Below are positions 16,302 to 32,710 of a stretch of DNA of 64,000 nt, in pieces. Position 1 is the stretch's first letter. Every line of letters starts with the position of its first letter. The translations under genes and the position numbers were made by a program. Location of the stretch: contig NZ_CP060204.1 in NCBI RefSeq assembly GCF_014250475.1, positions 2,183,001 to 2,247,000 on the forward strand, in the 5' to 3' direction. The stretch comes from Selenomonas timonae. GTDB taxonomy: Bacteria; Bacillota; Negativicutes; Selenomonadales; Selenomonadaceae. The notes beneath the pieces are model-generated. The model did no database searches and was not told the DNA's origin. It saw only the letters and a list, made by a program, of their open reading frames with translations.

Positions 16302-17672
16302 CTACGCGCGCCGTGCGCGCACATACCATTGATATGCATCCAGATCCTCGGGATTCACGTCAATCATATGAAGAGAAAGAATCTCTTCTCGAAACGCCTC
16401 CCACGAATCACCAAGTGTCACCGATCTTGGTCGTATGTCATCGATGACAAGATCGGCTTCCTCAAACATCTTGACAATCTCAGATTTTGTAAAGAAACGC
16501 AAATGCGTACGGTCAAGCAGCCCCATGTCCTCATACGTCCAAGAACCGCTCAGCATATTATAGAGATTGGTGATATGAGCCACGTTCGGGATACTCGCGA
16601 TGATCGAACCGCCCGGCACGAGCAGTTCGCGCATATTGCGAACCGCCGTCCACGGATCTAACAGATGCTCAATCACATCCCCCATGATGATGTAATCAAA
16701 ACGCTCCGGAATCTCTGCAGGGTCAAGATTCTCTACATTCATAGAGAGAATCTTCGCAAATGGTGCTGCGATTGCAGCGGCTCTCTCATTGAGTTCGACG
16801 CCATACAGCAATGCCGTTGGGTTTCGTGCTCCAATCTCCCTTAGCGTCGCCCCGCAGGCACAACCGATTTCGAGAACTCGCACCCCCTCACGTGTCAGAT
16901 CTGCCATCGGCAGAATATCCAGACGTACGTAAAAGGAATAATCGAGAGAAAGCCCCTGTTTCGAATAAAAAAGTGAGCGCTCACGCTGACGCAGCAGGTC
17001 GTACTCCTCCATCTCCTGGGCATGGATACTATCATTATGGTGCACATATATGCTTGGTATCGCAGCGATGCCGTCCCCCGCACGCGTCATTCGTATGGTA
17101 TAATCATATGACGCAAGGGCAGGCACCGAATATTCCTCATCAAGAAGTCCTGCTCTCTCAAGTACATCGCGGCGCACCATGAGTGCAAACAGCTCCGCGA
17201 TGATCATAGGAAATCTCTTGTTTCCGGCTCGCGCTCGAACATCCTCTGCGACCGCTTCAAAAGCATCCAAGGAGTGATAGTCTGTTTCTGGAAGGTATTG
17301 TTCCCACTCATACGTACGTGGAGCAACGGCACACACCGCCCCCGTCCTGGGATCACTAATCAGTACATCCAACATATCCTCTGCAGTGTGCTGTGCGAGC
17401 AAGACATCTGCATGAAGAAATAGAACAACTTCTCCAACAGACGCGCGGATTCCCATATTTACGGCATGCGAAAAACCATGATGCTCCTCACTGCGAAGGA
17501 CACGAACGTCATCCCCTGCCACAGAAACTGCAACACGCTCATTGTCCGATGAGCCGTCGTCAACAATGATTACCTCATATGGCAAGCGCACACTTCTCCG
17601 TATTGTCAAAAGGCACTGATTAAGCTGCCTATTCATGTTGTAAACAGGGATAATAATGCTTAGCTTTGCCAC
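16302..17672 (-). CDS. GT2 glycosyltransferase fused to a SAM-dependent methyltransferase
   Basis: 456 residues in two domains. Residues 1-220 form a GT-A glycosyltransferase family 2 domain: IIIPVYNMNR, VDDGSSD at 37-43 and HAD at 87-89 in the DXD position. Residues 245-410 form a class I methyltransferase: VLEIGCACG at 266-274 and a later IMGDVIEHLLDPW, the Methyltransf_11/23 pattern. A single protein could therefore add and methylate a sugar. It is the last gene of the glycan operon, starts at GTG, and looks more AT-rich than its housekeeping neighbours, consistent with acquisition by transfer. Confidence 0.88.
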   Translation of the reverse strand: MAKLSIIIPVYNMNRQLNQCLLTIRRSVRLPYEVIIVDDGSSDNERVAVSVAGDDVRVLRSEEHHGFSHAVNMGIRASVGEVVLFLHADVLLAQHTAEDMLDVLISDPRTGAVCAVAPRTYEWEQYLPETDYHSLDAFEAVAEDVRARAGNKRFPMIIAELFALMVRRDVLERAGLLDEEYSVPALASYDYTIRMTRAGDGIAAIPSIYVHHNDSIHAQEMEEYDLLRQRERSLFYSKQGLSLDYSFYVRLDILPMADLTREGVRVLEIGCACGATLREIGARNPTALLYGVELNERAAAIAAPFAKILSMNVENLDPAEIPERFDYIIMGDVIEHLLDPWTAVRNMRELLVPGGSIIASIPNVAHITNLYNMLSGSWTYEDMGLLDRTHLRFFTKSEIVKMFEEADLVIDDIRPRSVTLGDSWEAFREEILSLHMIDVNPEDLDAYQWYVRARRA

Positions 17673-17701: not shown

Positions 17702-18490
17702 TTACACCCACAGCTTCCATGGCGCTCTCCCGGACGCCCATCGTTCTTCCAATCGATACTTGTCACGCTGGGTATCCATGCACTGCCAAAAGCCCGTATG
17801 CTTGTATGCGTGAAGCCCGCCGCTCCGCGCGATCGTCTCAAGCGGCTCCGTCTCAAAGACACAATCATCATCATCACGCAGATAGTCGAATACCGCCGGC
17901 TCTACCACCATAAAGCCGCCGTTGATCCAACCGCCGTCCTCCTTCGCCTTTTCGACGAAGCGGCTAACCTCATTCGTATCGGATGCAATATCCAACACGC
18001 CGAACCTGCCCCCGGGCTGGATGGCAGTCATTGTCACGATCGTCTGCCCCGTCTTTGCACGGTGCGCTGCAAGGAGGGCATTCAGATCAACATCACTCAC
18101 ACCGTCGCCGTACGTCAGCATGAACGCCTCGTCTCCAATGTATTTTTGTACGCGCTTGATACGGCACCCCGTCTGGGCATGCAGCCCCGTATCGACGAGC
18201 GTCACCTTCCACGGCTCGGATACATTGTTGTGTACAGTCATCGCATTTCCCATCGTAAAGTCGAAGGTCACATCCGATGTGTGCAGATAGTAGTCGGCAA
18301 AGTATTCCTTTATCATATAGCCCTTGTATCCAAGACAGATGATAAACTCATGAAATCCATAATACGAATAGATCTTCATGATATGCCAAAGGATCGGCTT
18401 CCCACCAATTTCGATCATGGGCTTCGGTCTGAGCGCCGATTCCTCGCTGATCCGCGTACCGAGTCCGCCTGCCAAGATAACAACCTTCAT
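17702..18490 (-). CDS. rfbF: Glucose-1-phosphate cytidylyltransferase
   Basis: 262 residues. MKVVILAGGLGTRISEES is the nucleotide-binding loop, followed by RPKPMIEIGGKPILWHIM and YGDGVSDVD, the sequence pattern of RfbF and not RmlA. It makes CDP-glucose from CTP and glucose 1-phosphate, the entry to CDP-linked 3,6-dideoxyhexoses. The usual next enzyme, CDP-glucose 4,6-dehydratase (RfbG), is not in this operon. Spacing to its neighbours is 29-48 bases, within one transcription unit. Confidence 0.94.
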   Translation of the reverse strand: MKVVILAGGLGTRISEESALRPKPMIEIGGKPILWHIMKIYSYYGFHEFIICLGYKGYMIKEYFADYYLHTSDVTFDFTMGNAMTVHNNVSEPWKVTLVDTGLHAQTGCRIKRVQKYIGDEAFMLTYGDGVSDVDLNALLAAHRAKTGQTIVTMTAIQPGGRFGVLDIASDTNEVSRFVEKAKEDGGWINGGFMVVEPAVFDYLRDDDDCVFETEPLETIARSGGLHAYKHTGFWQCMDTQRDKYRLEERWASGRAPWKLWV

Positions 18491-18538: not shown

Positions 18539-19405
18539 CTACATCAGTTCCTTATGGTTTCGCTCCCATCCCGGCAAAATCCTGCCTCCGCGCCACGGAA
18601 TCATGATTTCCCGTTCTCGATAGGAACGCGCACCCCAGTCAACGAGCATCTTCTCCCCGCGCAGTTCTTCATAGCGACGAATGAGTTCGCGCAGTGTCAC
18701 GGCTGTTCCTGAGGATACGACATAATCGCCGCAGAGTTCATAGTGCCCGTCCGCAAGGTAGTTTCCTGCAAGCAGGAAGGCGCGCGCTGCATCCTCCGCA
18801 TGGACAAAGTCCACCCGCTGCTCCCCCGAGGATAGAGCCAAGCGCCGCCCCTCTGCGGCAAGTTGCGGCAGAACCGCGAGCAACTTGTTGCGTCGATCAT
18901 CCTCTCCATATGTATCGAACAGCGTCAGACTGATCGTCTGCAATCCCCGCGCCGCCGTATAGAATTTAACGATTGCATCAAATGCTTCTTTGGTCGCCGC
19001 ATACAAATTCGCCGGCTCATAGGCATCCCCATTGTAATGCTGCCACGAGGAGCGTGCATAAACGAGTCGGCGAACATTGTTCACGTCCATCGCCTCGAGT
19101 AGCTTCGTTCCAAAAGCAACATTACTCGCAATCAGCCTATCAATCTCTTCATATGTGTGAACTGTCGTATAGTATGTAGCAAGATGAAAGACCACATCCG
19201 GAGCGGCATCCTGTACAATTTCCGGCAGCTTCATACGATCAGCATTGTAAAATTGTATATTTTCGCGCAGCTCCACAGGGAGTACATTGACCTGTGAGGA
19301 CGCGCGCACGATGGCGGTGACCTGCCAGCCGTCCTCCAAGAGGCAACGAGCAACATATCCCCCCAGAAATCCCGTCACACCTGTAATCAGTGCCCTACGC
19401 TTCAT
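18539..19405 (-). CDS. NAD(P)-dependent nucleotide-sugar epimerase/reductase (extended SDR)
   Basis: 288 residues. GVTGFLGGYVA is the Rossmann GxxGxxG loop, FHLATYY follows, and NLYAATKEAFD gives the YxxxK catalytic pair. The protein is shorter than typical 4,6-dehydratases (about 340-360) and resembles nucleotide-sugar 4-epimerases or 4-ketoreductases. Lying next to rfbF it most likely acts on a CDP-sugar, for example as a 4-ketoreductase in the manner of AscF or abequose synthase. The exact reaction cannot be told from sequence alone. Confidence 0.82.
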   Translation of the reverse strand: MKRRALITGVTGFLGGYVARCLLEDGWQVTAIVRASSQVNVLPVELRENIQFYNADRMKLPEIVQDAAPDVVFHLATYYTTVHTYEEIDRLIASNVAFGTKLLEAMDVNNVRRLVYARSSWQHYNGDAYEPANLYAATKEAFDAIVKFYTAARGLQTISLTLFDTYGEDDRRNKLLAVLPQLAAEGRRLALSSGEQRVDFVHAEDAARAFLLAGNYLADGHYELCGDYVVSSGTAVTLRELIRRYEELRGEKMLVDWGARSYREREIMIPWRGGRILPGWERNHKELM

Positions 19406-19434: not shown

Positions 19435-20721
19435 TCAGTCGCCGCAGAAATACTCCCGCCATCTCTGCAGCTGCTCATCTGCAGGAAATACACGGCAGAA
19501 ATGCGGCAACGAGCTCTTGCTCTGTTCCCTGAGAATCGGCGGCAACGTCTGTGCTGCCACCCTTTCTCTAAAAATCACACGCAGGTCATTGGGCAACCCA
19601 TGCAGAAAGAATTCATGCGGCGTATACCCAAGCGCCCCCCGAAAGTCATAGCGGCGCGGCGCTTCGTTCAGGATTGCATCGTAGATCTCATGCAGCTGCG
19701 CTGTCGTGCGTTCCACGGAAAAATTCTGCAGAATCCGCTGCCGCGCAGCCTTTCCCAGACGGCGGCGCTTCGCAGGAGTGGCAAAGAGCTCCTCCAGCAC
19801 ACGCCGATAGCCCTCTGCATCCTGTACGCGCAGCCCCGTCTCATCCTGCACGACGAGATACTGTTCCGCACATTGATCGAGAACGACGACGGGCAGCTCC
19901 GCCGCCATCGCCTCGAGCAGAGCGTTCTCCGTCGTGCCGAAATGCGTTGGGTTCAGTAGATAGCCGAATACATCCATCTGCGCGAGTTCCGCGCTCACAT
20001 CGCTCACATAATCGACGAAGCGGAATTGCTCCTCGATACCGTATGCCCATGCCTCAGCACGAATCGCCGCCGCATTTGTCATATCACCCACGAGCACGAA
20101 TTCGATGCCGGGGATATGTGACACGCGCGCGCAGTACGCCACAAAGTCAGGATGCAGCTTCGCATAGGACTGCGTGCCGACATAGCCGACGACGAAGCGA
20201 CCGTCATGCACGCGTTCCGTATGCGGTTGGATCGCCGCAAAACCACCCGAGCTGTGCACAACTGACGTATTTTCACGCGCCCAGCGACGCTCTGCCGCGC
20301 TCCAATAGGGATTATCCAGCGAATAGGGCGACGTAAAGATAAATCTCTGCGGCACACGCAGGAACGTCGGAGGAATATACGGATAATAGCAGCCTGAGAC
20401 GTGCGCCCAGAGTGTCAAATGCATCTCAATCTGCGGAAAGTCCGCGAGAAATGCTGCCATCTGTGGATGATGCCACCACTCTATCTGAACGACATCGACA
20501 GCACGCATGGCGGACTCTATTGTGGGCACATCCGCTCCACAGATGATCTCCACGCCATCCGCACGACAGGCGTCGATAAAGTTCATCTTCTCGGGCTGCT
20601 CCAGCAGCAGGATGCGGTGGCGATAGCGCGTCCCCTTCCGCGCCGCATGGGCGGCGACACCCGACAGCACCTTGCCGACACCGCCGCCCATATGCGTTGT
20701 AATATGCAGTACTTCGCGCAT
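19435..20721 (-). CDS. Glycosyltransferase family 4 (GT-B fold)
   Basis: 428 residues. HITTHMGGGVGKVLSGVAAH is the N-terminal acceptor-side loop. FVVGYVGTQSYAKLHPDF opens the C-terminal domain and NPTHFGTTENALLEAMAAELPVVV carries the E-x7-E nucleotide-sugar pattern of GT4 retaining transferases. Donor and acceptor are unknown. An additional C-terminal stretch after residue 350 is not part of the usual GT4 fold. It is located between the epimerase genes in the glycan operon. Confidence 0.85.
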   Translation of the reverse strand: MREVLHITTHMGGGVGKVLSGVAAHAARKGTRYRHRILLLEQPEKMNFIDACRADGVEIICGADVPTIESAMRAVDVVQIEWWHHPQMAAFLADFPQIEMHLTLWAHVSGCYYPYIPPTFLRVPQRFIFTSPYSLDNPYWSAAERRWARENTSVVHSSGGFAAIQPHTERVHDGRFVVGYVGTQSYAKLHPDFVAYCARVSHIPGIEFVLVGDMTNAAAIRAEAWAYGIEEQFRFVDYVSDVSAELAQMDVFGYLLNPTHFGTTENALLEAMAAELPVVVLDQCAEQYLVVQDETGLRVQDAEGYRRVLEELFATPAKRRRLGKAARQRILQNFSVERTTAQLHEIYDAILNEAPRRYDFRGALGYTPHEFFLHGLPNDLRVIFRERVAAQTLPPILREQSKSSLPHFCRVFPADEQLQRWREYFCGD

Positions 20722-20732
20722 AATAGACTCCT

Positions 20733-21275
20733 TTAGTCGAACGGGCTGACGAAATCGGAGAGCGCGGGAAACCCCATATCACGCTCCGAGATGACGGGGT
20801 TCTCTATATCCCACGGAATCCCCGCCGAATCCCAGCGAATTCCCGCGTCACAAGCGGGCGCATAGACGCTCGTCACCTGATACATCATGACGGCGTGTTC
20901 GCTGCGCGTGCAGAAACCGTGTGCCATACCGCGCGGGATATAGAGCATCGTCCCCTCTGCTGCGCGCAGTGAAATAAGTATGTGCTGGCCGTATGTCGGC
21001 GACGCACGTCTGAGATCCACAACCGCATCCAGCACCTCCCCCTCCGCGCAGTAAACAATCTTTTCATGATCCATCGGAGGAATCTGAAAGTGAAGCCCGC
21101 GCAGCACATTTCGGTGCGAAACGGAAAAATACGCCTCGGCAAAGACGGTCGGCAACCCCAGTTCTCGAAACGCATCGACGTGGAAGGTCTTGACAAACAC
21201 ACCGCGCCTGTCCTCCCGTACAATCGGGAGGATTTTCAGACACCCCCCCATCGGTGTCTCCTCTATCTCAAACAC
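20733..21275 (-). CDS. dTDP-4-dehydrorhamnose 3,5-epimerase-like protein
   Basis: 180 residues with the RmlC cupin pattern. RGVFVKTFH is near the front and RGLHFQIPPMDHEKIV carries the catalytic His. IPRGMAHGFC is present and GIRWDSAGIPW lies at the end. In RmlC-type enzymes the His abstracts the C3 and C5 protons of a 4-keto-6-deoxy sugar. No rmlA, rmlB or rmlD accompany it, but an rfbF gene does, so a CDP-linked substrate (as for AscE in CDP-ascarylose synthesis) is possible. Substrate assignment is inference. Confidence 0.88.
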   Translation of the reverse strand: MFEIEETPMGGCLKILPIVREDRRGVFVKTFHVDAFRELGLPTVFAEAYFSVSHRNVLRGLHFQIPPMDHEKIVYCAEGEVLDAVVDLRRASPTYGQHILISLRAAEGTMLYIPRGMAHGFCTRSEHAVMMYQVTSVYAPACDAGIRWDSAGIPWDIENPVISERDMGFPALSDFVSPFD

Positions 21276-21287
21276 GGGATCACCTCC

Positions 21288-21884
21288 TCATATCGCAACA
21301 AGCGTACACAGACCGAGGGCGGACTCCACGGAGCGCCCCATGTACTGCTCGAACTCCGCCTTCATCGCAAAGAGCTGGTGCCAGCGCGGCAAACTCGTCT
21401 CGTCAATGCCATAGCGCAGCATAATGTCCATCATGCGCCGCTCGATTGCCACGATCCCCTCACCCGTCGCCATCGCATCACAGAGTTGAATCAGTCGGTC
21501 ATACTTGGTGTATGTGCGCTCCTGCAAAAAAGAATCCAGAAAGGCATAGTCCTCCGACGTCAGATCCCAGCCGCCGTGGACCGCCGTGATCTCCTGCACA
21601 GGAAAGGAATGCGTCAAACAGATCTCCGCCGCCTCCGTATCTCCCTGCTCCAAAAGGAAGTGATAGCCGAGGATCACGTGATTCATGCCCATCTCGCCGA
21701 ATCTGCGCCCGATGTCGTGAAGCACCCCGAACACAAAGGCGCGCTCCGCATCCAGCCCTTCAACGAGAGCCGCAATGCGCTCCGCCGCCGTTCCGACGGC
21801 AAGCGAGTGGACAATCCAGCCTCCGTCATTCAGCCGCCGCGCCTCATCCAGATACGCCATGGCACGATCTCTCGTGATCCTCAC
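21288..21884 (-). CDS. HD-domain metal-dependent phosphohydrolase
   Basis: About 198 residues with the HD signature: an early His in GGWIVHSLAV, GVLHDIGRRFG as the HD doublet, and a later conserved Asp in YAFLDSFLQE. The start chosen is GTG 21884, which has GGAAG eight bases upstream; an earlier GTG at 21914 would add ten residues but lacks a ribosome site. Relatives act on nucleotides or phosphate esters. Why it lies within a glycan operon is not clear: it could recycle a nucleotide by-product or be a passenger. Confidence 0.8.
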   Translation of the reverse strand: MRITRDRAMAYLDEARRLNDGGWIVHSLAVGTAAERIAALVEGLDAERAFVFGVLHDIGRRFGEMGMNHVILGYHFLLEQGDTEAAEICLTHSFPVQEITAVHGGWDLTSEDYAFLDSFLQERTYTKYDRLIQLCDAMATGEGIVAIERRMMDIMLRYGIDETSLPRWHQLFAMKAEFEQYMGRSVESALGLCTLVAI

Positions 21885-21917
21885 AAAACATCTTCCTTTC
21901 GGCAGTTCCTCCACGCG

Positions 21918-22982
21918 CTATAGCGCGTAGAGTACGGACTCCCCGCTCGTCACGCTGTGATGGCGGAAGAAAAAGCGGTAGCCGCTGTAAAACGAGCGGA
22001 TGAGCAGAGGGATTCGGATATAGTCTTCGAGACTGTGATAGACGCAGATCGCAAGTTTCGGATGATGCGTCCGTATCGTCTCCTCTGCCCCAAGGAGCGC
22101 ATTGTACTCCGCGCCCTCGATGTCCATCTTGATGAGCGTCGGTACCTCTGTCAGCACGCTGTCCAGCGGCATCGCCTGAATCCGCTCCCCCTGTGCCGCC
22201 CCGTGCGTCTCCAAACGTGACGCCGAGGGCGTCGCCTGATTGCCGCTGAACACAAGCTGCTGCTCCTCATTCCAGAGTGCATAAGGATAGAGCGCAACCT
22301 GCGGCAGTGCCGCGTACTTTTCGCAAAGCAGGCGATAGCTTGACGCATCCGGCTCGAAGGCACAGACGCGAACTTTCGGATTCATCGCAAGCGCTTTGTC
22401 GATCTCCTCACCGCCGCATACGCCGGCATCCACGAATATCTCATCGTCGACCAGCGTTGGAATGACGTCATTTGCAAAATATTGATTTGTCTTGGCGAGG
22501 GAGAAATCCAGCGGGCGTCCACACATCATGTTTTCAATCAGACGCGCGTATAAGCGGCGCGATTTCTCATCGGCGAACATCGCGCAGATCTCTTCAATCT
22601 CCGCCCTGTGTTCGGCATAGTAGGCAGCCGCATCCATCTGAACTGCGGAACATATCTGCGCCTTGACCGCCTGCTGTTCTAGCTGCGAGACAATCTGCAG
22701 CAGATTGATCCCCGTCGCCCCAATGATGATTGCAAACGGTTTTCCCGCCAGATAATGTGTATGGGCGGATTCAAATACGCACTCAGACGCATAGATGGGT
22801 ATACCGTCTATCTGCATCCCCTGCATCTTTGCAGCATTGTCGCAGAAGCAGAGCGGCGCGTGCAGCAGCTTTCGATCGACACAGTATTTTTCGTAGAACG
22901 CCCGCGCTACGCGCCCCGTTCCCCAGAGTACATAGTCTGTATCGCGCAGACCTCCAAAGGTATCCGCATGGTCAGCATACAA
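21918..22982 (-). CDS. FkbM-family methyltransferase with N-terminal Rossmann-like domain
   Basis: About 354 residues in two parts. Residues 10-130 contain DYVLWGTGRVARAFYEKY and FCDNAAKMQGMQIDGIPIY, a nucleotide-binding-like Rossmann domain. Residues 180-354 are the FkbM domain: EIFVDAGVCGGEE, CAFEPDASSY and LIKMDIEGAEYNALLGAE. FkbM enzymes O-methylate sugars or polyketides with S-adenosylmethionine. A TTG start nine bases after GAGGAGG is preferred to the GTG three codons upstream, which abuts that sequence. The gene overlaps the end of the radical SAM gene by 11 bases. A second gene of the same architecture lies at 28072-29223. Confidence 0.86.
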   Translation of the reverse strand: MYADHADTFGGLRDTDYVLWGTGRVARAFYEKYCVDRKLLHAPLCFCDNAAKMQGMQIDGIPIYASECVFESAHTHYLAGKPFAIIIGATGINLLQIVSQLEQQAVKAQICSAVQMDAAAYYAEHRAEIEEICAMFADEKSRRLYARLIENMMCGRPLDFSLAKTNQYFANDVIPTLVDDEIFVDAGVCGGEEIDKALAMNPKVRVCAFEPDASSYRLLCEKYAALPQVALYPYALWNEEQQLVFSGNQATPSASRLETHGAAQGERIQAMPLDSVLTEVPTLIKMDIEGAEYNALLGAEETIRTHHPKLAICVYHSLEDYIRIPLLIRSFYSGYRFFFRHHSVTSGESVLYAL

Positions 22983-24954
22983 GAGCCTCACCCTCCTCGA
23001 TTGGCTGAATCAGATCCAATATATTGATGACTTCCTTTACATGCGGATACTCCGCACGAATCTGCTTCTCGATAGTCGTCACATAGGAGACAACAGGGAT
23101 GACGACTGTATCAATCCCCAGCTCGTTCAGGATCGCGGGTGCGTGAATGACTTTCCCCTCAACGATACCGCCCTGCTTGATCCGAGAGTTGTCAATCAGA
23201 TAGGCGTGCTCATTCTGCACGGCAGGGAGGTCGGGCAGCATATTGGCAAAGTAATCGTTGATCCCCCAGAACGCAACGCGCCCCTTCTCCGTGAGGAGAT
23301 GCGCAACCGAATGCGATATGCAGTCCGTGACCTCATGCAGGATCGGCAGCTTGTGCTTCTTTCCGCAATCCTTACAGGTCAGAACATTGCGCGTAAAGAA
23401 GCGCACATTCTTCCATGTGTTCTCTATACCGCACGAGGTACAATCCCCTGTAAATCCGATGCGCTTCTCCTCGTAGTCCAGTGTGACCTCCCGAATCCTA
23501 TCCGGAACGAGGAAGGCACGCTGCGGCAGCGTCATGATCTGCTCGGCGACCCAGTCCATCTCAGATTTTGACATCTTCGACAGGTTCACAACGGGGCAGC
23601 CGTCGCGAATAAACTGCACCTCGTCCTTGATGAGTCCCCGCTGCAGCGCCTGCTTGTAGAGCGGCGTACCGGGATATGCTGTGATGAAATTTAGCGTAAT
23701 ACCGTACTCCGGATGATCCTTCCACCAGTTCAGCGTCTTCGTCGCCGTCTCCAGTGTCTCCTCCACATCGCCAAAGATGAAGCCGCCCTGTATCGTAATG
23801 CCATAGTCATAGGTCAGCTTCAGTGCACGCTCCGTCTGCTCAAACTTGATCTTCTTGTTCATGCTCTCAAGGATGCGGTCGTCCGCACTCTCGAGACCAA
23901 AGCCCATCGTAACACAGTTCGCATCCTTCAATGCGCGGAGCATCTCCTCCGTCACATCCGAGACACGGAACTGCGCCCACCAGCGGATATTGTACGGCTT
24001 GATGCGGGCACAGAACTCGAGGACGCGCTTGAAATTATATGCGAAAAGCTCATCCGATACAAAGATGTACTTGATGCCGTATTTCTCTACAAGAATATCG
24101 AGTTCTCCAAAGAAATTATCCAATGAACGTTTTCGATAGTGACTGCCACTCGTGTGAAAGCAGAACGTGCACTGGAATGGGCAGGAACGGCTCGAAGTCA
24201 TTGTAATCGCATGATCCTCATTGATTCCAAGCAAATTCGCCATATTACCGGCGATCCTGCCAAAGTCAAAACCATCATAGTCGGGGAACGGAATCGAATC
24301 CAGATCGCGCACTTCCTTGCGCGGCAAGGTGCGTCGATAACCGCGCTTGTATGGATTCGGGGTTTCGCGCAGCTCCTCTCCGAGGACACGAGGTGCAATG
24401 ATGAGCCCGTTGACAGAGAGTGGATCGCCGCCCTTGGCAACAACCTTGCAAAGCTCTGGTGTGGTCTCCTCCCCCTCACCGATAATGCCATAGTCAGCAA
24501 ACGCCAAGACCTCCATGCCTGCCTCGGGTGCACTCGTGATGATGCCGCCACCCGCAACGGTGACGATATTCGGATCATATTCCTTGGCCGCCTGCAGGAT
24601 CTCCTTGATGGCATTGTACTGAAAGGACAGTCCCCCTGTGAGGAGCATCCCAATATCATATTTTTTTATATATGCCTGCACCGTATCGGCAACAGAACCC
24701 TCCTCGTGGTTCATGTTGAGTGTATACACACGCAGCCCCGCCGCCTTCATACAGGAAGAAACATAGGGAATCCCGAGTGGGAACTGATACCACTCGCCAA
24801 CCTTATCGACGAAGCGCGGCATCACGAGCAAATAATTCCATGCCCTACTGGCAAAAAGTGGTGAAACACATGTATATTTCTTGGTATCTGTCGAAGAGGG
24901 CGGCGCCATATTGTCACATTTACCCGACATTCCGTCAATTCTTTTCGTTCCCAT
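22972..24954 (-). CDS. B12-binding-domain radical SAM protein with C-terminal zinc-ribbon and Rossmann-like domains
   Basis: 660 residues. An N-terminal cobalamin-binding-type domain covers about 40-190 (LLTGGLSFQYNAI, VAGGGIITSAPE). The radical SAM core follows with SCPFQCTFC, giving the CxxxCxxC cluster site at C258, C262 and C265. A ribbon with CTSCG and CKDCGKKH lies near 500-530. The last 110 residues start VAFWGINDYFANML and run through IDNSRIKQGG, resembling the C-terminal Rossmann region of sugar C-methyltransferases. Such enzymes can methylate unactivated carbon or rearrange sugars; the substrate here is unknown. The start is ATG 24954 with GGGAG upstream. Confidence 0.86.
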   Translation of the reverse strand: MGTKRIDGMSGKCDNMAPPSSTDTKKYTCVSPLFASRAWNYLLVMPRFVDKVGEWYQFPLGIPYVSSCMKAAGLRVYTLNMNHEEGSVADTVQAYIKKYDIGMLLTGGLSFQYNAIKEILQAAKEYDPNIVTVAGGGIITSAPEAGMEVLAFADYGIIGEGEETTPELCKVVAKGGDPLSVNGLIIAPRVLGEELRETPNPYKRGYRRTLPRKEVRDLDSIPFPDYDGFDFGRIAGNMANLLGINEDHAITMTSSRSCPFQCTFCFHTSGSHYRKRSLDNFFGELDILVEKYGIKYIFVSDELFAYNFKRVLEFCARIKPYNIRWWAQFRVSDVTEEMLRALKDANCVTMGFGLESADDRILESMNKKIKFEQTERALKLTYDYGITIQGGFIFGDVEETLETATKTLNWWKDHPEYGITLNFITAYPGTPLYKQALQRGLIKDEVQFIRDGCPVVNLSKMSKSEMDWVAEQIMTLPQRAFLVPDRIREVTLDYEEKRIGFTGDCTSCGIENTWKNVRFFTRNVLTCKDCGKKHKLPILHEVTDCISHSVAHLLTEKGRVAFWGINDYFANMLPDLPAVQNEHAYLIDNSRIKQGGIVEGKVIHAPAILNELGIDTVVIPVVSYVTTIEKQIRAEYPHVKEVINILDLIQPIEEGEALVC

Positions 24955-24967
24955 CAATGTTATCTCC

Positions 24968-25978
24968 CTATCTTATCACGCCGCGCTGCAAGAGTTCTGC
25001 GGCATTGCCGTCGAGGATATCCTCCTCAAACATGGCGTATTGGTACTGTCTGCACTTGGCGCAGACTTCGTATTTATCCTTGTTGAATGTGAGCTGTGCC
25101 CGGCGGAATGCCTCGGTCTTTTTACCCTGCCAAATGGCGCGCATGGACTCCTTCGCAAGATCACCGAGGATATACGGTGTCTCCATCGAGCAGCACGGCA
25201 CAATCATGCCGTCAGGGTTCAGCTGCATCATGTAGAAGGGCTGCGGGCAGACGGCGGCGCTCCCAACAGCCGCACCGTTCTGCGTCACCTCTGCCGCACC
25301 GCCGAGTTGATCGTAGTCGATCTGCGGCACGGCGGGGATCAGATGCTCCACGGCGATGAAATCCGAGATGTCGCCGAAGATCTCCAAAAAGCGCTCCTCC
25401 TCGCCCTCTTTCAGCGCGCAGTCGATGATCTTCACATAGATCCGCGTCGCACCGCGATGCTCATAGAAGAACTGAATGCGTTCGACCAGCTCCCGAAAGA
25501 CGCCGCTGCGGCTCGTATGCGCATACGCCGCATCGTCTATCCCCTGTATCGAGATGCGTATTCTGCCGAGCCGCGCGTCGATGAGCGCACGCGAAAGATC
25601 CTCCGTGAGGGCAAGCCCGTTCGTCACGATGTCGATCGTATCGGCAACGCCATGCTCCGCTGCATAGGCAACCATATCCGCAATGCGTGGATGCAGCAGC
25701 GGTTCGCCTGTCCCCGCAAAGCGCAGCATCTTCAGCGGTTGCGGGAACTCGGTCAAGCCGTCAATACACTTTTCATAGAGATCATAATCAAGCATAACCT
25801 TGCCCGCAACAAAGCCGCGCTCCGATGGAGGGACGGAGTGAATGCAGTAGGCACAGGCGAGGTTGCATCCGTACACGGGAAAGATCTGTACGGAGAAAGG
25901 CGTCGCGAGCGGCAGTACATCGGCGAGCGGCGTGCGCTTTCCGCCCGGCGTCTGCCCGTCGATGCGCTGCGCCCTCAT
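24968..25978 (-). CDS. Radical SAM/SPASM-domain protein, tandem copy 3
   Basis: 336 residues. CNLACAYC (C38, C42, C45) ligates the catalytic 4Fe-4S cluster. GTGEPLLHPRIADMV and ISIQGID are core motifs. A C-terminal SPASM-like region holds CPQPF, VPCCSM and CAKCRQYQ, the sites for an auxiliary cluster. It shares the lead-in LADVLPLATPF and overall layout with the next two genes upstream, so the three are tandem paralogues. Its ATG overlaps the preceding stop by four bases. SPASM enzymes modify peptides, sugars or tRNA; within this operon a sugar or glycoprotein substrate is likely but not proven. Confidence 0.87.
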   Translation of the reverse strand: MRAQRIDGQTPGGKRTPLADVLPLATPFSVQIFPVYGCNLACAYCIHSVPPSERGFVAGKVMLDYDLYEKCIDGLTEFPQPLKMLRFAGTGEPLLHPRIADMVAYAAEHGVADTIDIVTNGLALTEDLSRALIDARLGRIRISIQGIDDAAYAHTSRSGVFRELVERIQFFYEHRGATRIYVKIIDCALKEGEEERFLEIFGDISDFIAVEHLIPAVPQIDYDQLGGAAEVTQNGAAVGSAAVCPQPFYMMQLNPDGMIVPCCSMETPYILGDLAKESMRAIWQGKKTEAFRRAQLTFNKDKYEVCAKCRQYQYAMFEEDILDGNAAELLQRGVIR

Positions 25979-26994
25979 CTCCGTAACTCCTCAATGCGTG
26001 CGAGGATCGCATCCGCATCGTCGTCGAGATGATCCTCAGGATGTGCGACATCGTTCGCCGCGCAGCAGATCGCGCAGCGTTTGTTCTCGCTGCGCCGTCC
26101 CTCAAGCTGCATCCGCCAGAATTCGTGCATCTGCTCACTGTGCCACATATCGAGAATCCGTCCATTGTGCACATTGCCGAGTACGATGGGCTTATAGATC
26201 GTATCACACGGCTCAACGTCGCCGTTTGGAAACACCCCGAGCATATAGAATGCGAGCGGACAGACCTGATAGATGCGATCGGTCTTGATGCCGTTGCGGT
26301 CAGTCTCAATCACCATGTCCTTCGTCATCTCCACGCCGTCGTAAGCGGGCAGCATGTGCTCGATATACATGCGGTCCGTGCAGTCGGCAAAGAGTTCGTA
26401 GAACTTTTCATCCTCCCCCTCGTCCAAGGCAACATCCATCACCTTGAGGAAGAGGTTCGTCGTCTTCTTATGGGCATAGAAATAGCGGATGTTCTCGACA
26501 AACTCATCAAAGTCCACCTTTGCACGGCAAATCTCCGCATATTTCTGCGAGGAAAGTCCCTGCAGCGAGACGCGCAGCGTATCCAGCCCTGCATCAATGA
26601 GTGCGTCGGCGAGCGCGGGACGGAGCATGGAGGCATTCGAGATGATCTCGATGCGCTCGGCAACATCCTGCCCCTTCGCAATGCGTACCATGTCCGCAAT
26701 GTGCGGGTTGAGCAGCGGTTCCCCCTGTCCCGTGAGCGAAAGCATCTTGAGCCGCTGTGGGAACTCTGCAAGCTGCTCGATGGTCTTTTCGTACGTCTCC
26801 ATCGTCATGTGCTCTGGCGTGAAGTCATACTGCTTTTTCATCTCGGCAAAGCCAAGCGAATGCCCGCAGTAGGCACATTTGAAATTACAGAACGTCGTTG
26901 GAAAGACGAACGCACTGTACGGGGTCGCAAGTGGAAGGACGGAGGCGAGCTGGACGCGTTCCGTTCCGTAGATCGGCTTTATTTCGGATGCCAT
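25975..26994 (-). CDS. Radical SAM/SPASM-domain protein, tandem copy 2
   Basis: 339 residues. Catalytic cluster motif CNFKCAYC (C36, C40, C43), GQGEPLLNPHIADMV and VSLQGLSSQKY follow in order. C-terminal cysteines lie in CPLAFYM, VEPCDT and CAICCAAND. Compared with its neighbours it has the same N-terminal lead-in, LASVLPLATPY, and ends with an acidic tail near HPEDHLDDDADAI. The three copies differ mainly in the auxiliary-cluster cysteines, suggesting they act on related but different substrates or steps. Confidence 0.87.
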   Translation of the reverse strand: MASEIKPIYGTERVQLASVLPLATPYSAFVFPTTFCNFKCAYCGHSLGFAEMKKQYDFTPEHMTMETYEKTIEQLAEFPQRLKMLSLTGQGEPLLNPHIADMVRIAKGQDVAERIEIISNASMLRPALADALIDAGLDTLRVSLQGLSSQKYAEICRAKVDFDEFVENIRYFYAHKKTTNLFLKVMDVALDEGEDEKFYELFADCTDRMYIEHMLPAYDGVEMTKDMVIETDRNGIKTDRIYQVCPLAFYMLGVFPNGDVEPCDTIYKPIVLGNVHNGRILDMWHSEQMHEFWRMQLEGRRSENKRCAICCAANDVAHPEDHLDDDADAILARIEELRR

Positions 26995-27003
26995 AGTCCC
27001 TCC

Positions 27004-28032
27004 CTAGTCTGCAAAGAGCGGCAGCAGACGCTCCGCATCATCGTCCAGCTGCTCCATCGGGTTGTTGATTGCATTGAAGCAAGTGCATGTCGCGCAATCC
27101 GGAATTTGATCCTTTTCCTTCTTGAGCATCTTGCGCAGGAATCCCCTGCGGCGGCTGCCGTTCCAAATCTCCGTGAGCGTATGCTCCTTCGCGTTGCCCA
27201 TAGAGAGGTTCTTGCCCAGCCCCGGCACGGGACAGGGGAAGATGTCGCCCTCACAGCCGATCTGCATGAAATAGAAAGACTGGGCGCAAACTTTGCGGTT
27301 CACATCAAGTTCTTCACCGTAGAAATTTTTTGAACCATCGACGATCTCGCGGAGTCCGTCCATCTGCTGCTGCATGACGACGAGGTGTTCGATGTAGATG
27401 CGATCGGCAAAGGGGCTGAAGATCTCGAAGAACTTTTCTTCGTTCTCCTTTGTCCCCAGTGTCGCGTCGATTGCCTTGATGTAAATCTGGACGTTCCCCT
27501 TGTGCTCGTAGAGGTATTTCAGATTCTCGAGATAGCGTTCAAAGTCGATGCGGATGCCGCACGTCTCCTCATACCCCGCCGCATCAAGCCCCTGCACAGA
27601 GATATTGATGTTCGTGATGCCCGCCTCAACGAGCGCTCGACTCTTCTCAGGCGTCAGCAGCAGGCCGTTCGTGATGACCTCGACGCGCCCTGCAATCTGC
27701 GCCTCCACCACCATGCGCACGTACTCCGGCAGACGCGGGTTCATCAGCGGCTCGCCAAGTCCCGAGAAGACGATGCGCTTGACGCCGTCCTGCGGAAATT
27801 CCTTGAGTTCGCGGATGATCTTCTCGAAGAAGCTCTCGTCCATATGCTGCATACGATGTCCGAGGGCACGGAATTCGCCGCCCTCCTCGTCACGAGTGGA
27901 GTGAATGCAGTAGAAGCATTTGAAATTGCAGTATTTCGTCTGCTCGATATAGACGGTGAAGGGGCTTGCAAGAGGGATGATCTCCGCGAGCTTTTTTCTC
28001 TTTGTATCGTAGTTTGGCTTGATCTCTGCCAT
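27004..28032 (-). CDS. Radical SAM/SPASM-domain protein, tandem copy 1
   Basis: 342 residues, first of the triplet to be translated. CNFKCFYC (C35, C39, C42) binds the catalytic cluster, with GLGEPLMNPRLPEY and ISVQGLDAAGY in the core. The C-terminal SPASM-like region contains CAQSFYFM, FPCPVPG and CATCTCFNAINN. It shares the acidic ending (MEQLDDDAERLL) with copy 2. RBS AGGAGA is upstream. It follows the second FkbM gene by 39 bases. No peptide substrate gene of the ranthipeptide or sactipeptide kind is seen next to it. Confidence 0.87.
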   Translation of the reverse strand: MAEIKPNYDTKRKKLAEIIPLASPFTVYIEQTKYCNFKCFYCIHSTRDEEGGEFRALGHRMQHMDESFFEKIIRELKEFPQDGVKRIVFSGLGEPLMNPRLPEYVRMVVEAQIAGRVEVITNGLLLTPEKSRALVEAGITNINISVQGLDAAGYEETCGIRIDFERYLENLKYLYEHKGNVQIYIKAIDATLGTKENEEKFFEIFSPFADRIYIEHLVVMQQQMDGLREIVDGSKNFYGEELDVNRKVCAQSFYFMQIGCEGDIFPCPVPGLGKNLSMGNAKEHTLTEIWNGSRRRGFLRKMLKKEKDQIPDCATCTCFNAINNPMEQLDDDAERLLPLFAD

Positions 28033-28071: not shown

Positions 28072-29223
28072 TCAGGGAACGGCATACACGACCGTTTCCA
28101 GTCCCATGAATTGATAGTTGCGGATGTAGAGGCGGTAGCCCTCATAGAGTTCCCTGATCTGCAGGGGAATCTCCCACAGATGTGAAATATCGTGATAGAC
28201 GCAGATCGCGAGCTGCGGATGATATGCTTGAACCAGCTCCCGTGCCCCTCTGAGCGCACGCGGCTCCATACCCTCGATGTCCATCTTGATCATCGTCGGC
28301 GCAAAGCCACGCAGCACGGCGTCGAGCGGTGCGCAGGGGAGTACCGCCGTGCCCGTCGGGTCTGCCTTTGCCGCAGAGCGTCCGTCCGAGACCTCCATAA
28401 AATGCAGCTGCTCATAGCAATCCGATGCCCCGAGCGGCAGAATATGTGCCTCGTGAATTCCCTGCTGCGCGACGATATAGGTCTGAATCCCTGCGCAGAG
28501 ATCCCCCTGCGGCTCGAGCGCCGCATACGCCTCGATCTCTCTGCCGCTCCCGAGGATGCTGCGCAGGGTATCGCCGTCGTAGGCACCGCAGTCAATCAGG
28601 CGACGGTAGTCCATCTCCTCCGGCACATCCGCCGCGAGATACTGCCCCTCGATGGGCAGCGGCTGCGGGAAGCGCGTGACATCGTGCGCGTGATAGCCGG
28701 ACAATGCGGCGAGAAGGAAATCGCGCTCCTCCTCAGTCGAAAACAGTTCATATGCCGCGCGTATCTTCTCTGCATCGCGCGGCAGATTGATGGGGTCGTA
28801 CGAGCCGATAAACATATGCGAGAGGAAGCTACGGCTCTTGATTGCCTGCCAGTCAATCTCATGTAGAGCGTAGATATGCCGAAAACCGATTCCCGCAAGG
28901 GAGCGGCGTATGGCTCTGTCCTGCATCCGACCAAAGAGTCCCGCAAGGATTACAACGCTGTCCTTGCAGTGTGGAGCCAGCTCCGGCGCATCCGGTGCAT
29001 AGACCGGTGCGGACGTGCTACATCGCGCAGCATTCCGGTCGATAAAGCCATGCGGCTCGATGCCGTTACCGACAAGGCACGCATAGAGTTTCTTCCCAAG
29101 ATTCCCCGCCCCGTAGAGGAGCAGCGGCTGTGCCTGAAAAGCAGAAAATCCATGCCGCGCGGGTGTCTCATGGAGGGATGTAAAAAACTGTTCGAGTTTA
29201 TGCAGATCCGCAGGCGATTTCAT
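28072..29223 (-). CDS. FkbM-family methyltransferase with N-terminal Rossmann-like domain, second copy
   Basis: 383 residues. LLLYGAGNLGKKLY begins a nucleotide-binding-like Rossmann domain at about 30-130, with HGFIDRNAARC in the place where sugar C-methyltransferase C-termini have an acidic binding loop. The FkbM domain follows: RLIDCGAYDGDTL, then TMIKMDIEGMEPRALRGAR. The architecture is the same as the FkbM protein encoded at 21918-22982, though the two are clearly diverged. The ATG overlaps the upstream GT2 stop by four bases, indicating translational coupling. It likely O-methylates a sugar hydroxyl in the surface glycan. Confidence 0.86.
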   Translation of the reverse strand: MKSPADLHKLEQFFTSLHETPARHGFSAFQAQPLLLYGAGNLGKKLYACLVGNGIEPHGFIDRNAARCSTSAPVYAPDAPELAPHCKDSVVILAGLFGRMQDRAIRRSLAGIGFRHIYALHEIDWQAIKSRSFLSHMFIGSYDPINLPRDAEKIRAAYELFSTEEERDFLLAALSGYHAHDVTRFPQPLPIEGQYLAADVPEEMDYRRLIDCGAYDGDTLRSILGSGREIEAYAALEPQGDLCAGIQTYIVAQQGIHEAHILPLGASDCYEQLHFMEVSDGRSAAKADPTGTAVLPCAPLDAVLRGFAPTMIKMDIEGMEPRALRGARELVQAYHPQLAICVYHDISHLWEIPLQIRELYEGYRLYIRNYQFMGLETVVYAVP

Positions 29224-30779
29224 ACGCTCTTCCTCAATACAACGGCATACTGGGTCATCAGCGCGTCAAAGCGCTCCTCCGAGAATATTTCACGCACATA
29301 GGAATTGTTCCGGTATTCCTCCATCGCTCTCAGCTGTGCAAAGAAATTTTCTCTCAGATCATACACCTCTTCCATATAGGGATATATATCCATAACATAA
29401 GGCAGCATTGCAAGTTTCTCTGTCAATCCTGACAATCCCTGCGCAAGCGCCTGTGGCTCACTCTGCATGGCATTGGCAACTGCTTGCAGATCATATGGGA
29501 TGTCATAATTGCGTGCCTTAAAAACCAATGTGCCATGCTCTGCCAAATGCGCTGCAGCAGCCTGAATCACGGAAAAGGGATCCTCATAGCGATCCACATA
29601 TTCTCCGATGATAATATAGTCATACCGTTCATTACCAATCTTATCAGACAGTCTGTCAATATCTCCGCAGAGAACTCCATCATCACAAAATGACGATAAA
29701 TCTTGCCAATACTTCGGATCGGTGGTATATGCCGTCAACCGCGTACTCCCAAAGCCGTCACTACGCAAAGTATTCCGTATCTCGAGAAGCGGTGTTCCGC
29801 AGCGCACATCAATACCAAGAGCGCGAACATTCTCCTTCATTGCTATTTTTTCAAAAAGGACTCTTTGCAAAAACACTTCGAAGTTGATAACATCATCCCA
29901 AGCATCTATTCCATTATATTTCAATCGAAACAGAATACGCCCCTTCTCAATATTCATAGCATATTGTTTTGGGTCTGCCCTACCAATGCTGCTTCCTTCA
30001 TGATGGACGAATACATCACCGCACAGAACAATTCGATATCCCAGCCGTCGATAGGTAAATGAGACATCATCATCCGCAAAATCGTAGACAAAGGCATAGT
30101 CGGCTTCGTAACATTCGCGCAGAGAGGTGCGAATCACGCACACAGTTGGGATCAGGCGCAGGCGGTCATGCCACTTTCGCGGGTCGGATACATTAAAAGC
30201 CGCTGCTTTCTCCTGCATATCTGCAAAGTTGGAATATCCCAAGTCAACACTCTGCTTATTTGTCACATTGTCCGACATGGGCACAACAAATCCGATACGC
30301 TCATCCGACTCCATACAGATAAGCATATTCTTCAACCAATTCTTTGTTACAAGAATATCATTCGGCAGACCTACAAAATATTTTCCGCGCAGAAAGCGAC
30401 CCTGCGTCGCATACTTCGCCGCGCTGTAGGCATAAAACGCCCCGATGTTCTTCGTGATTCGATAAATGCGTTTACGTGGATGCGGAATACTTTGAAAGAA
30501 CTCGAACGTCCCATCTGTAGAGCCATTATCCACTAAGATCAGCTCATAGTCAATCCCCGATGTATACCGCAGAAGCGCAGCAATCGCAGGCTTCGTATAA
30601 TCCTCCAGATGATTGAACGCCTGAAAGTAGATGCTCACGAGAGGATCATCCACTGCTGCAACACTAGCGACACTCTTCTCGCGGTTCGCATAGGGATCCA
30701 ATACATCGCCATATACGATCGGCTCTTTTTCATCCGAATGGATAACCGTGATATCTTCCTTCTGCAATCTTGTTATCAT
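29220..30779 (-). CDS. GT2 glycosyltransferase with degenerate C-terminal methyltransferase-like region
   Basis: About 519 residues. The GT2 core at 40-310 shows VSIYFQAFNHLEDY, ILVDNGSTDGTFEFF and LPNDILV. The C-terminal region (about 330-519) has the order of a class I methyltransferase (YDYIIIGEYVDRYEDPF) but lacks a clear glycine-rich SAM loop, so it may be inactive or bind something else. The start chosen, ATG 30779, has CGGAG upstream and lies 19 bases after the preceding stop; earlier in-frame starts would overlap that gene by up to 77 bases. This stretch is visibly more AT-rich than the rest of the window. Confidence 0.82.
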   Translation of the reverse strand: MITRLQKEDITVIHSDEKEPIVYGDVLDPYANREKSVASVAAVDDPLVSIYFQAFNHLEDYTKPAIAALLRYTSGIDYELILVDNGSTDGTFEFFQSIPHPRKRIYRITKNIGAFYAYSAAKYATQGRFLRGKYFVGLPNDILVTKNWLKNMLICMESDERIGFVVPMSDNVTNKQSVDLGYSNFADMQEKAAAFNVSDPRKWHDRLRLIPTVCVIRTSLRECYEADYAFVYDFADDDVSFTYRRLGYRIVLCGDVFVHHEGSSIGRADPKQYAMNIEKGRILFRLKYNGIDAWDDVINFEVFLQRVLFEKIAMKENVRALGIDVRCGTPLLEIRNTLRSDGFGSTRLTAYTTDPKYWQDLSSFCDDGVLCGDIDRLSDKIGNERYDYIIIGEYVDRYEDPFSVIQAAAAHLAEHGTLVFKARNYDIPYDLQAVANAMQSEPQALAQGLSGLTEKLAMLPYVMDIYPYMEEVYDLRENFFAQLRAMEEYRNNSYVREIFSEERFDALMTQYAVVLRKSV

Positions 30780-30798
30780 ACCATATCTCCGTATTTTA

Positions 30799-32673
30799 TC
30801 ATATAGGCTGTTGCGTAATGCAGACAGCAATTTCATCTCCCGTGAGAAGTCGCTGAACGCGCGTTTTCTCATCATCCTCGACGTGGAGAAGCTGCCCCGT
30901 CATTTCGGCAAAATCTTCTAGGCCCTCGAAGATATGCCCCACTCTCATATATCCCACACGTACAAAGGACGGAGAGAACTGCGTCTCCAACGCTTCGACG
31001 AGGTGCGGCGTCGGAAGTATGCGCTGTCCTTCGAGAGAGATGATCACAGGGCGGGCGAGATATGGAAGCTCATTCGTCAGACTCTCCATCGTATGCGTAA
31101 AGCTGTTGAAATTGTGCCATGTGGCATAGAGAAAGCCGCGTGCGCGCAAATGTCTGTGACAGATCTGAAAGAAAGGAATGATATGGGATATATCAAGGTT
31201 GTTCAGCGGCGCGCCAACGATGATCATATCATAACTCTCGTTCAGCTCCTCCTCAAGACAGTCAATCGAGGACAGGCAGCGCACATTGTCCGCCATATGC
31301 TGTGCGTCCACTAGGTAGCGCACATCCGTCACGATGACGTCAATGATGGACTCCTGCCGCCGTTGACGGAGATGATTGCGGACGGCGAGCACTCCCTCGC
31401 CGAAGAGCGGCTCGATGATGAGAACGCGCTCCACTGATCGAACATCGTGCAGACCCTTTAGAAATTCACCTAGAAAAGGCAAGTGTCCGCGCGATTCCCA
31501 CGGATCGACCGTCCATTTGCTGCGGAAGACGGGGCGCATGGATACGATGCTCTTATATTTGCCGCGCTTCGTGCGAACCTCGTTCAACGTCATCCCGCCG
31601 AAATGATGAACAAAGGTATCCTTTGCAAGGATTTGACGAAATCCAGAGCGACGCAGCATTGCCGAGAAGTCATCATCCTCAAAGTCACACATAACATAGC
31701 GATAATCCGCACGGATCTCAGGCACGTCGAAAAGATTTGGCACAACGCTCACGAATGGCATGAGAACTGCTCTCTCCTCCCAGAGGAGAGAGTTCGATAC
31801 ATTGTAATGCGCAGCAAACTGCTCCATCTCCCCCATCGCCTCAAAGGTATTCTCATAGTCCACAGGAATGCCCTGATAGTTGGCAATACAGCCTGCGTTG
31901 CAAGTCGGAACGACCCAGAACACATCCTGCTCCGCCGCATGAACGGCAAGGAGATTCTCGAGCCAATGAGGTGTCGCAACGGCATCGTTCGAGAAATAGA
32001 CGACGTATTCCCCCTCGACAATGTGGCGTGCAATGCCCCAGCCGAGATGATTGTAGACATTGTGTTTCAGATTGATCTTCTTCTCGTGCGGCAGGCTGTT
32101 GAAATACTCCTCCGTCTCATCAGACGAGCCATCGTTGATCGTGATGAGCTCGATATCCCCGCGCAAAAAGTCCGTATGACGGAAGAGGCTCTCGATGGCA
32201 CAGCGCGAAAACTCCACCTTGTTATAGGCAGGTACGATGATCGAGATGCGATATTTGAAATCTGTTCGGCGCGGGCGTTTGCGTGCCGCCTCAAATGCCG
32301 CAAGTGTCTGCGCCAGATACTCCTCTTCTCGCTCAGGGTGGCGCAGTATGTTATATTCCAGATCAAGCTGATAGTGCAGGTCGAGAAAGAGCGGTCGTAC
32401 TTCGTAGGAGAAGTACGACCGTGCCTCTTCTGACGTTTCAGCCGCCAGTGCCTTCTCGGCAGAATGCGCTGCATTCAATGCATAGCGACGACATTTTTCG
32501 ATCAGAGTGCCTTCCTCTCCCGCCAGATACTCTGCGACAGAATCCATTGCCGCTGCAAAATCCGTCAAGACCTGCTGTGCAGGTACCGTCAGCACACCAT
32601 TTTCATGCAGGACAGCGCCGACATAGTCGACCGCTTCCTGCGCCGCCTCCATGATCTCTTCATACCACTGCAT
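30799..32673 (-). CDS. Large GT2 glycosyltransferase, first gene of the glycan operon
   Basis: 624 residues. An N-terminal helical region of about 135 residues precedes the GT2 domain: ISIIVPAYNKVEF, ITINDGSSDETEEYF, YFSNDAVATPHW and a later FVHHFGG. The region after residue 385 resembles the methyltransferase-like tail of the next gene (ESYDMIIVGAPLNNL) without an evident SAM loop. Start ATG 32673 follows AGAGGA by five bases. It is the promoter-proximal gene of a 14-gene unit running to 16302. The acceptor is unknown; surface protein or flagellin glycosylation is a reasonable guess. Confidence 0.83.
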   Translation of the reverse strand: MQWYEEIMEAAQEAVDYVGAVLHENGVLTVPAQQVLTDFAAAMDSVAEYLAGEEGTLIEKCRRYALNAAHSAEKALAAETSEEARSYFSYEVRPLFLDLHYQLDLEYNILRHPEREEEYLAQTLAAFEAARKRPRRTDFKYRISIIVPAYNKVEFSRCAIESLFRHTDFLRGDIELITINDGSSDETEEYFNSLPHEKKINLKHNVYNHLGWGIARHIVEGEYVVYFSNDAVATPHWLENLLAVHAAEQDVFWVVPTCNAGCIANYQGIPVDYENTFEAMGEMEQFAAHYNVSNSLLWEERAVLMPFVSVVPNLFDVPEIRADYRYVMCDFEDDDFSAMLRRSGFRQILAKDTFVHHFGGMTLNEVRTKRGKYKSIVSMRPVFRSKWTVDPWESRGHLPFLGEFLKGLHDVRSVERVLIIEPLFGEGVLAVRNHLRQRRQESIIDVIVTDVRYLVDAQHMADNVRCLSSIDCLEEELNESYDMIIVGAPLNNLDISHIIPFFQICHRHLRARGFLYATWHNFNSFTHTMESLTNELPYLARPVIISLEGQRILPTPHLVEALETQFSPSFVRVGYMRVGHIFEGLEDFAEMTGQLLHVEDDEKTRVQRLLTGDEIAVCITQQPI

Positions 32674-32710
32674 AGTCTTCCTCTTTTCGCACCCCTGCAA
32701 TCACATCCAT

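Follow-up and report, generated by a model that had tools for sequence, protein, structure and literature searches.

Three consecutive genes, here called S1, S2 and S3, lie in a 64,000-nucleotide stretch of Selenomonas timonae (the window; RefSeq assembly GCF_014250475.1, contig NZ_CP060204.1, positions 2,183,001 to 2,247,000) within a cassette of nucleotide-sugar and glycosyltransferase genes. By their sequences the three products are twitch radical SAM proteins, and their phylogeny indicates an old set of paralogues that has been kept together and jointly inherited. The best explanation, which on balance is probable, is that they are three specialised enzymes modifying a deoxysugar, either activated with cytidine diphosphate (CDP) or in a short glycan, for flagellin O-glycosylation. 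The computed basis for this consists of the orthology of the three genes, their linkage in a cassette, their company of CDP-sugar and glycosyltransferase genes, a flagellar neighbourhood in some relatives, the predicted fold of S2 and S3 and residues that are specific to each clade.

All three proteins match PF04055 (Radical_SAM) and PF13186 (SPASM) above the Pfam cut-offs. The window translations bear out the initial annotation, which had described three consecutive genes for proteins of 336, 339 and 342 residues sharing a lead-in (LAxV/I-x-PLAS/TP), CxxxCxxC, GEPLxxP and I/V-S-x-Q-G, while its label of SPASM protein stands only in so far as the Pfam model of that name matches. The full SPASM motif is described as seven cysteines (CX9-15GX4C-CX2CX5CX3C-C) serving two auxiliary clusters, with the twitch being a truncated SPASM domain that has the ligands for one auxiliary cluster (PMC6231123). 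In the trio the first half of the motif and the CX2C are present, reading C-X12-G-X4-C ... CxxC in S3, but CX5CX3C and the last cysteine are absent, and because these further cysteines are missing the proteins, with four auxiliary cysteines each, are classed as twitch. These four cysteines were kept in 47 of 47 S1, S2 and S3 rows of the first alignment, and CxxxCxxC in every such row neither cut nor masked there. No named NCBIfam radical SAM equivalog or maturase was matched, the best (TIGR04317) scoring 81-104 bits against a cut-off of 380 and the 25 best listed for each protein all lying below cut-off.

BLASTP identity was 39% between S2 and S3, 38% between S1 and S3 and 34% between S1 and S2 (E 4e-80 to 2e-65), with codon-aligned DNA identities among the three genes of 50-52%. 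Measured in 40-column blocks, pairwise identity was 41-59% in alignment columns 1-120 and fell to 18-23% in columns 281-320, which separate the second auxiliary ligand from the third, such that the earlier statement that the differences concentrate in the auxiliary region was roughly right. When the S. timonae genome was searched with S1, no close copy beyond the three was found, the next match scoring 37 bits compared with 199 and 235 for the two neighbours. Relatives were gathered from a public-genome scan by short conserved peptides (best 80 of 143 relatives), a 151-genome family sample and a 398-genome phylum sample, in the last of which at most five candidates were scored per genome and at least 9 genomes matched. 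Tree 1 excluded L123 (= L040), the frame-broken pieces of L058 except S3, hits of 50 bits or fewer and proteins of fewer than 270 or more than 500 amino acids, with tree 2 further excluding the S3 of L119 (masked bases), the S1 of L040 (cut), two of L053, L054, L055, L059, and one of L134. In tree 2 (80 proteins) S1, S2 and S3 each formed a clade of their own, with 18 labelled rows apiece and support of 100/99, 99/97 and 99/99 respectively, the S1 clade additionally holding three unlabelled rows from genomes G199 and G446. Members of all three clades occur in Selenomonadaceae, in a number of further Bacillota families and in a Melainabacterial metagenome-assembled genome (contig L043, for which misbinning is possible), with Brachyspira (L051) also placed in the S1 clade. 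This S1-clade gene of Brachyspira alvinipulli, outside the Bacillota, is on a contig whose two ends carry partial copies of equal score and opposite direction, a pattern that looks like an assembly repeat.

The tree speaks against the local tandem triplication that the initial annotation had claimed. A triplication private to the window was rejected, with forcing the window's three copies into one clade costing 1133 log-likelihood units (p 1.3e-5 in the approximately unbiased (AU) test). Each copy groups instead with its counterparts in other genera and families, and the duplications are therefore old. Joining S1, S2 and S3 as one clade was rejected if the divergent S3x rows were left outside it (p 0.0025) but not when the S3x rows were joined with them (p 0.17). 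As the outcome depends on S3x inclusion, the AU tests do not show three independent recruitments from distant families either, the alternative that had been set against duplication. Nor does the expectation of a clade restricted to such clusters hold, since single relatives are also found at other Selenomonadaceae loci, many with glycan genes.

The gene company of the trio was compared at 21 loci, which were picked for holding trio relatives and several of which are truncated by contig ends. Homologues were tabulated by tblastn at 45 bits or more, a method chosen because the open reading frame caller had preferred antisense frames to some real genes, among them one S3 gene of G052 and S1 of Selenomonas noxia. 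S1, S2 and S3 were consecutive and in that order at 15 of the 21 loci. Homologues of the glycosyltransferase at 19435-20721 were present at 20, of RmlC at 18, of FkbM at 17, of RfbF at 16, of rfbG at 10, of the B12-binding radical SAM protein at 9 and of rfbH at 5. In the window the trio is tightly spaced, with a gap of 9 bp between S1 and S2 and an overlap of 4 bp between S2 and S3. The S. timonae genome holds the CDP-3,6-dideoxyhexose pathway with all three proteins above curated cut-offs (RfbF 403.5, RfbG 437.4 and RfbH 709.8 bits), both rfbG (861,447-862,478) and rfbH (862,523-863,845) being located outside the window cluster. RfbF, RfbG and RfbH lead to CDP-4-keto-3,6-dideoxyhexose. RfbH was found in six of six trio genomes in the family sample, compared with 36 of the remaining 145 (Fisher p 0.00035, a value inflated by kinship). 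In four of the six sampled RfbH-bearing members of the genus that lack the trio (G037, G085, G097 and G107) one related radical SAM gene lies within 10 kb of rfbH, while in G120 two S3-clade genes (L120 9854-11984) occur directly after rfbH and 21.7 kb from flagellin, besides that genome's own trio.

Part of the evidence for a role in flagellin glycosylation comes from relatives in which the cluster lies among flagellar genes. In Desulfosporosinus (L050) flagellin lies to one side of it and fliD-fliS to the other, and flaG genes occur at either end. Neighbourhoods were inspected in the phylum-sample genomes with two or more matches, namely, besides S. timonae itself, G465, G507 and G199 (all three clades), G446 and G353; G291 and G377 had single matches. 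The cluster lies between flagellin and flaG-fliD-fliS in both G465 and G199, and in G507 beside a block with flgK, fliW, flagellin, flaG, fliD and fliS. G446 contributes only an S1-clade gene and one outside relative, and its partial cluster lies between flagellin genes; the G353 matches are on a 12.2-kb contig without flagellar genes. In Caloramator, flagellin (1,515,223) is about 3.4 kb before the stretch examined. Pfam flagellin domains were located in the S. timonae genome at 879.8 kb and, of FlgL-like type, at 873.9 kb. By eye the block that holds them is flgK-flgL-fliW-flaG-fliD-fliS-flagellin, with a number of large open frames after it, and rfbG and rfbH lie close by. The RfbH results from the genus and the family tie the window cluster to these CDP-sugar genes, even though about 1 Mb separates them. 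In the genus sample RfbH was found in 10 of 14 genomes, with rfbH 14.6-33.3 kb from flagellin in all ten. The large open frames directly downstream of the S. timonae flagellin fall within 881-899 kb (L152), and the first of them resembles a glycosyltransferase by eye.

Flagellin glycosylation islands with FkbM genes are known (PMC5109656), and the flagellar glycosylation island of Clostridium butyricum carries CDP-paratose genes (PMC13317340). In these Geobacillus and Clostridium islands nucleotide-sugar genes, glycosyltransferases and FkbM methyltransferases, kinds of gene that the trio clusters also hold, accompany flagellin, and the main texts of the two papers hold no words starting with 'radical' or 'SPASM'.

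AlphaFold models of S2 and S3 had mean predicted local distance difference test (pLDDT) scores of 92.5 and 92.3. In VIA-align the best match was BtrN for both S2 (Z 23.3, root-mean-square deviation (rmsd) 2.6, 239 residues aligned) and S3 (Z 23.1, rmsd 2.8, 238 aligned), followed by DesII (Z 20.5 and 20.8, respectively), and a sequence comparison of the trio profile with solved structures likewise ranked BtrN first (E 3.6e-15). BtrN, the 2-deoxy-scyllo-inosamine dehydrogenase, is a twitch enzyme whose auxiliary cysteines align with those of the trio; it oxidises an aminocyclitol, with the four-cysteine auxiliary cluster as the likely electron acceptor (PMC9012708). The identity in the best fold alignments is however 18-21%, the residues after ligand 2 differ and, unlike BtrN, the trio comprises three paralogues in a CDP-sugar/glycosyltransferase cluster. 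DesII, a thymidine diphosphate-sugar ammonia-lyase, and BlsE, a cytosylglucuronate decarboxylase, act on sugar-nucleotide-type substrates and have folds resembling S2 and S3, but where listed their NCBIfam models scored far under cut-off (DesII 39 and 31 of 450 bits; BlsE 34 of 400 for S2). For this subfamily, fold or function is reported to be hard to predict from sequence networks (PMC6231123).

The three clades differ in the residue following the second auxiliary ligand. In the first alignment this was proline in 11, serine in 4 and valine in 1 of 16 S1 rows, aspartate in 13 and glutamate in 2 of 15 S2 rows and cysteine in 16 of 16 S3 rows, with S2 also keeping its extra cysteine after CxxC in 15/15. 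In additional genomes the S2 pattern (both features) was seen in 3/3 and that of S3 in 3/3, while S1 had proline in G465 and serine in G507. A shared hydrogen-donor cysteine at S1 Cys158/S2 Cys156 was considered and rejected as too poorly conserved (11/16 and 14/15; S3 5/16). The stepwise or parallel modification of related substrates proposed in the initial annotation would fit these clade-specific residues, and taken as a whole its interpretation is partly supported.

In the proposed mechanism, RfbF from the window together with RfbG and RfbH from elsewhere in the genome would make CDP-4-keto-3,6-dideoxyglucose, which RmlC would epimerise and the short-chain dehydrogenase/reductase (SDR) would reduce. 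The trio would act on such a CDP-sugar before or after transfer, with each member making a 5'-deoxyadenosyl radical and taking one hydrogen atom from a sugar carbon. In S2, with aspartate beside ligand 2, the second electron may pass to the auxiliary cluster, giving a dehydrogenase, while in S3, with cysteine in that position, a hydrogen atom may be given back from the other face, giving an epimerase. S1, with mostly proline or serine, may carry out a third reaction or act at another position, and no specific reaction is proposed for it. The FkbM proteins would O-methylate and the glycosyltransferases would assemble the glycan, and the cassette would have moved away from the flagellar locus in Selenomonas. 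An aspartate of this kind has been proposed to act as base in anSME. The model for the S2/S3 proposal is HygY and NeoN, radical SAM epimerases of aminoglycosides from antibiotic pathways; Cys249 is described as the hydrogen donor in NeoN. A rather doubtful possibility is a relay in which each trio member catalyses a radical reaction of its own on the same CDP-activated or glycan-bound deoxysugar, such as dehydrogenation by S2 and epimerisation by S3, to yield a flagellin sugar with a stereochemistry beyond that of ordinary nucleoside diphosphate (NDP)-sugar enzymes.

A number of observations weigh against this explanation. No flagellin is encoded in the window, the nearest in the genome being about 1 Mb off, and flagellar genes were present within the stretch examined at only 5 of the 21 loci. 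Flagellin was found in 12 of 12 tested genomes with trio members but also in 322 of 398 genomes of the phylum sample, and because of this high base rate its presence was dropped as evidence, with only flagellar neighbourhood being counted. The RfbH association is partly one of kinship, with four of the six trio genomes coming from one genus. In Sporanaerobium hydrogeniformans the cluster (L041 1000-17600) lies, by eye, between rplA and rplJ; its position looks like an insertion into a ribosomal-protein region. It is possible, although unlikely, that the Selenomonas cluster builds another surface glycan (lipopolysaccharide O-chain, capsule or S-layer) and that the flagellar link seen elsewhere is not transferable, in keeping with the distance from flagellin and with the position of the cassette, which has ftsH on one side and birA on the other in S. 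noxia, G120 and the window and is next to ftsH in S. flueggei. O-antigen loci also commonly hold glycosyltransferases and rmlC/rfb-type genes. Against another surface glycan stand rfbG and rfbH, which complete the CDP-sugar route 16 kb from flagellin in S. timonae, the closeness of rfbH to flagellin in all ten RfbH-bearing genus members sampled and the S3-clade pair after rfbH in G120, and there is no flippase, polymerase or ligase among the annotated cluster genes, no search aimed at these having been made.

The structural comparison is not one-sided, as BlsE (Z 19.8 for S2 and 18.9 for S3) ties with the peptide enzymes SuiB (19.2 and 19.1) and SkfB (18.6 and 18.8), and the match to BtrN is weak when the C-terminal part of S3 is taken by itself (E 0.022). 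Together with the flagellar neighbourhood in some relatives, the Z scores of 18-19 for SuiB, SkfB and ChlB would agree with the trio modifying amino-acid side chains of flagellin or another surface protein directly, the glycan genes being mere neighbours. This is harder to credit than another surface glycan, given that Pfam (E 0.01) shows no domain beyond the radical SAM core and SPASM/twitch, and so no peptide-binding domain, that the common partners are nucleotide-sugar and glycosyltransferase genes and that the top fold matches are the cyclitol enzyme BtrN and then DesII. The residue evidence also has its exceptions, with the extra S1-clade rows of G199 and G446 carrying V, D and V instead of proline or serine, and the S3-type 'CC' occurring in several relatives outside the trio, such that it is not peculiar to S3 and is weak as evidence for an epimerase. 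Membership of the three proteins in a single hetero-complex, or redundant action of all three on one carbon, with the copies reflecting dosage or subunits rather than three reactions, would account for genes that often co-occur and are tightly spaced. It is nevertheless the least plausible of these alternatives, as the seven cluster cysteines are all retained in each clade, S2 (Asp/Glu) and S3 (Cys) hold their own auxiliary-site residue in every row of the first alignment and G120, G052 and Desulfosporosinus have additional S3-clade copies with no further S1 or S2 to match, at odds with a fixed stoichiometry.

The window cassette is flanked by ftsH and birA (both named by eye) and runs from two GT2 genes through FkbM, S1-S2-S3, the B12-binding radical SAM gene, a second FkbM, HD, RmlC-type, glycosyltransferase, SDR and RfbF genes to a glycosyltransferase/methyltransferase-like gene (Table 1). 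The N-terminal part of the first FkbM protein gives a weak match of NeuD type (E 0.003), and C-terminal CxxC pairs in the B12-binding radical SAM protein resemble a zinc ribbon by eye. At the S. noxia locus (L039/L117) the interval from S3 to the second FkbM gene yielded no B12 radical SAM gene, which therefore seems separable from the trio.

Table 1. Genes of the cassette and sequence features of the trio, in window positions.
Feature	Position	Strand	Remark
GT2-family glycosyltransferase	30799-32700	minus	
GT2-family glycosyltransferase	29220-30875	minus	plus weak methyltransferase match under cut-off
FkbM-family methyltransferase 1	28072-29223	minus	
S1, twitch radical SAM protein	27004-28032	minus	342 aa, first of trio
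S1 CxxxCxxC	27907-27930	minus	residues 35-42
S1 twitch region	27085-27288	minus	Cys249-Cys316; Pro268 after ligand Cys267
S2, twitch radical SAM protein	25975-26994	minus	339 aa
S2 CxxxCxxC	26866-26889	minus	residues 36-43
S2 twitch region	26065-26262	minus	Cys245-Cys310; Asp264 after Cys263; extra Cys311 just past
S3, twitch radical SAM protein	24968-25978	minus	336 aa
S3 CxxxCxxC	25844-25867	minus	residues 38-45
S3 twitch region	25052-25249	minus	Cys244-Cys309; Cys263 after Cys262
B12-binding radical SAM protein	22972-24957	minus	661 aa, gene next to S3; homologue in 9/21 loci
FkbM-family methyltransferase 2	21918-22991	minus	
HD-domain protein	21288-21914	minus	
RmlC-type sugar epimerase	20733-21275	minus	PF00908 above cut-off; NCBIfam rmlC 154.7 bits, just below cut-off 155.75
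Glycosyltransferase	19435-20721	minus	GT4-type matches, all under curated cut-offs; homologue in 20/21 loci
NDP-sugar SDR, epimerase/reductase type	18539-19405	minus	without family-specific match
RfbF, glucose-1-phosphate cytidylyltransferase	17702-18490	minus	TIGR02623, 403.5 bits vs cut-off 300.25
Glycosyltransferase with methyltransferase-like second half	16302-17672	minus	matches under curated cut-offs

A literature search turned up no paper that deals with radical SAM enzymes as part of flagellin glycosylation, subscription journals being poorly covered, such that this is no proof of novelty; among the matches listed, the terms 'radical SAM' and 'flagellin glycosylation' were found together in a Rickettsia genome paper only. 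Should the three enzymes indeed carry out three radical reactions on one deoxysugar, theirs would be the first known case of a flagellin glycan that depends on radical SAM chemistry, and the cassette behind it would have spread across the Bacillota and reached one or more other phyla. Motility, filament assembly and immune recognition can all be influenced by flagellin glycans, and a conserved radical-enzyme cassette at flagellin loci would suggest sugar structures for which no one has yet searched. The three naturally diverged paralogues raise the possibility that one residue beside the auxiliary cluster may set the fate of the sugar radical, with the dehydrogenase/epimerase switch described for HygY becoming testable on a natural set.

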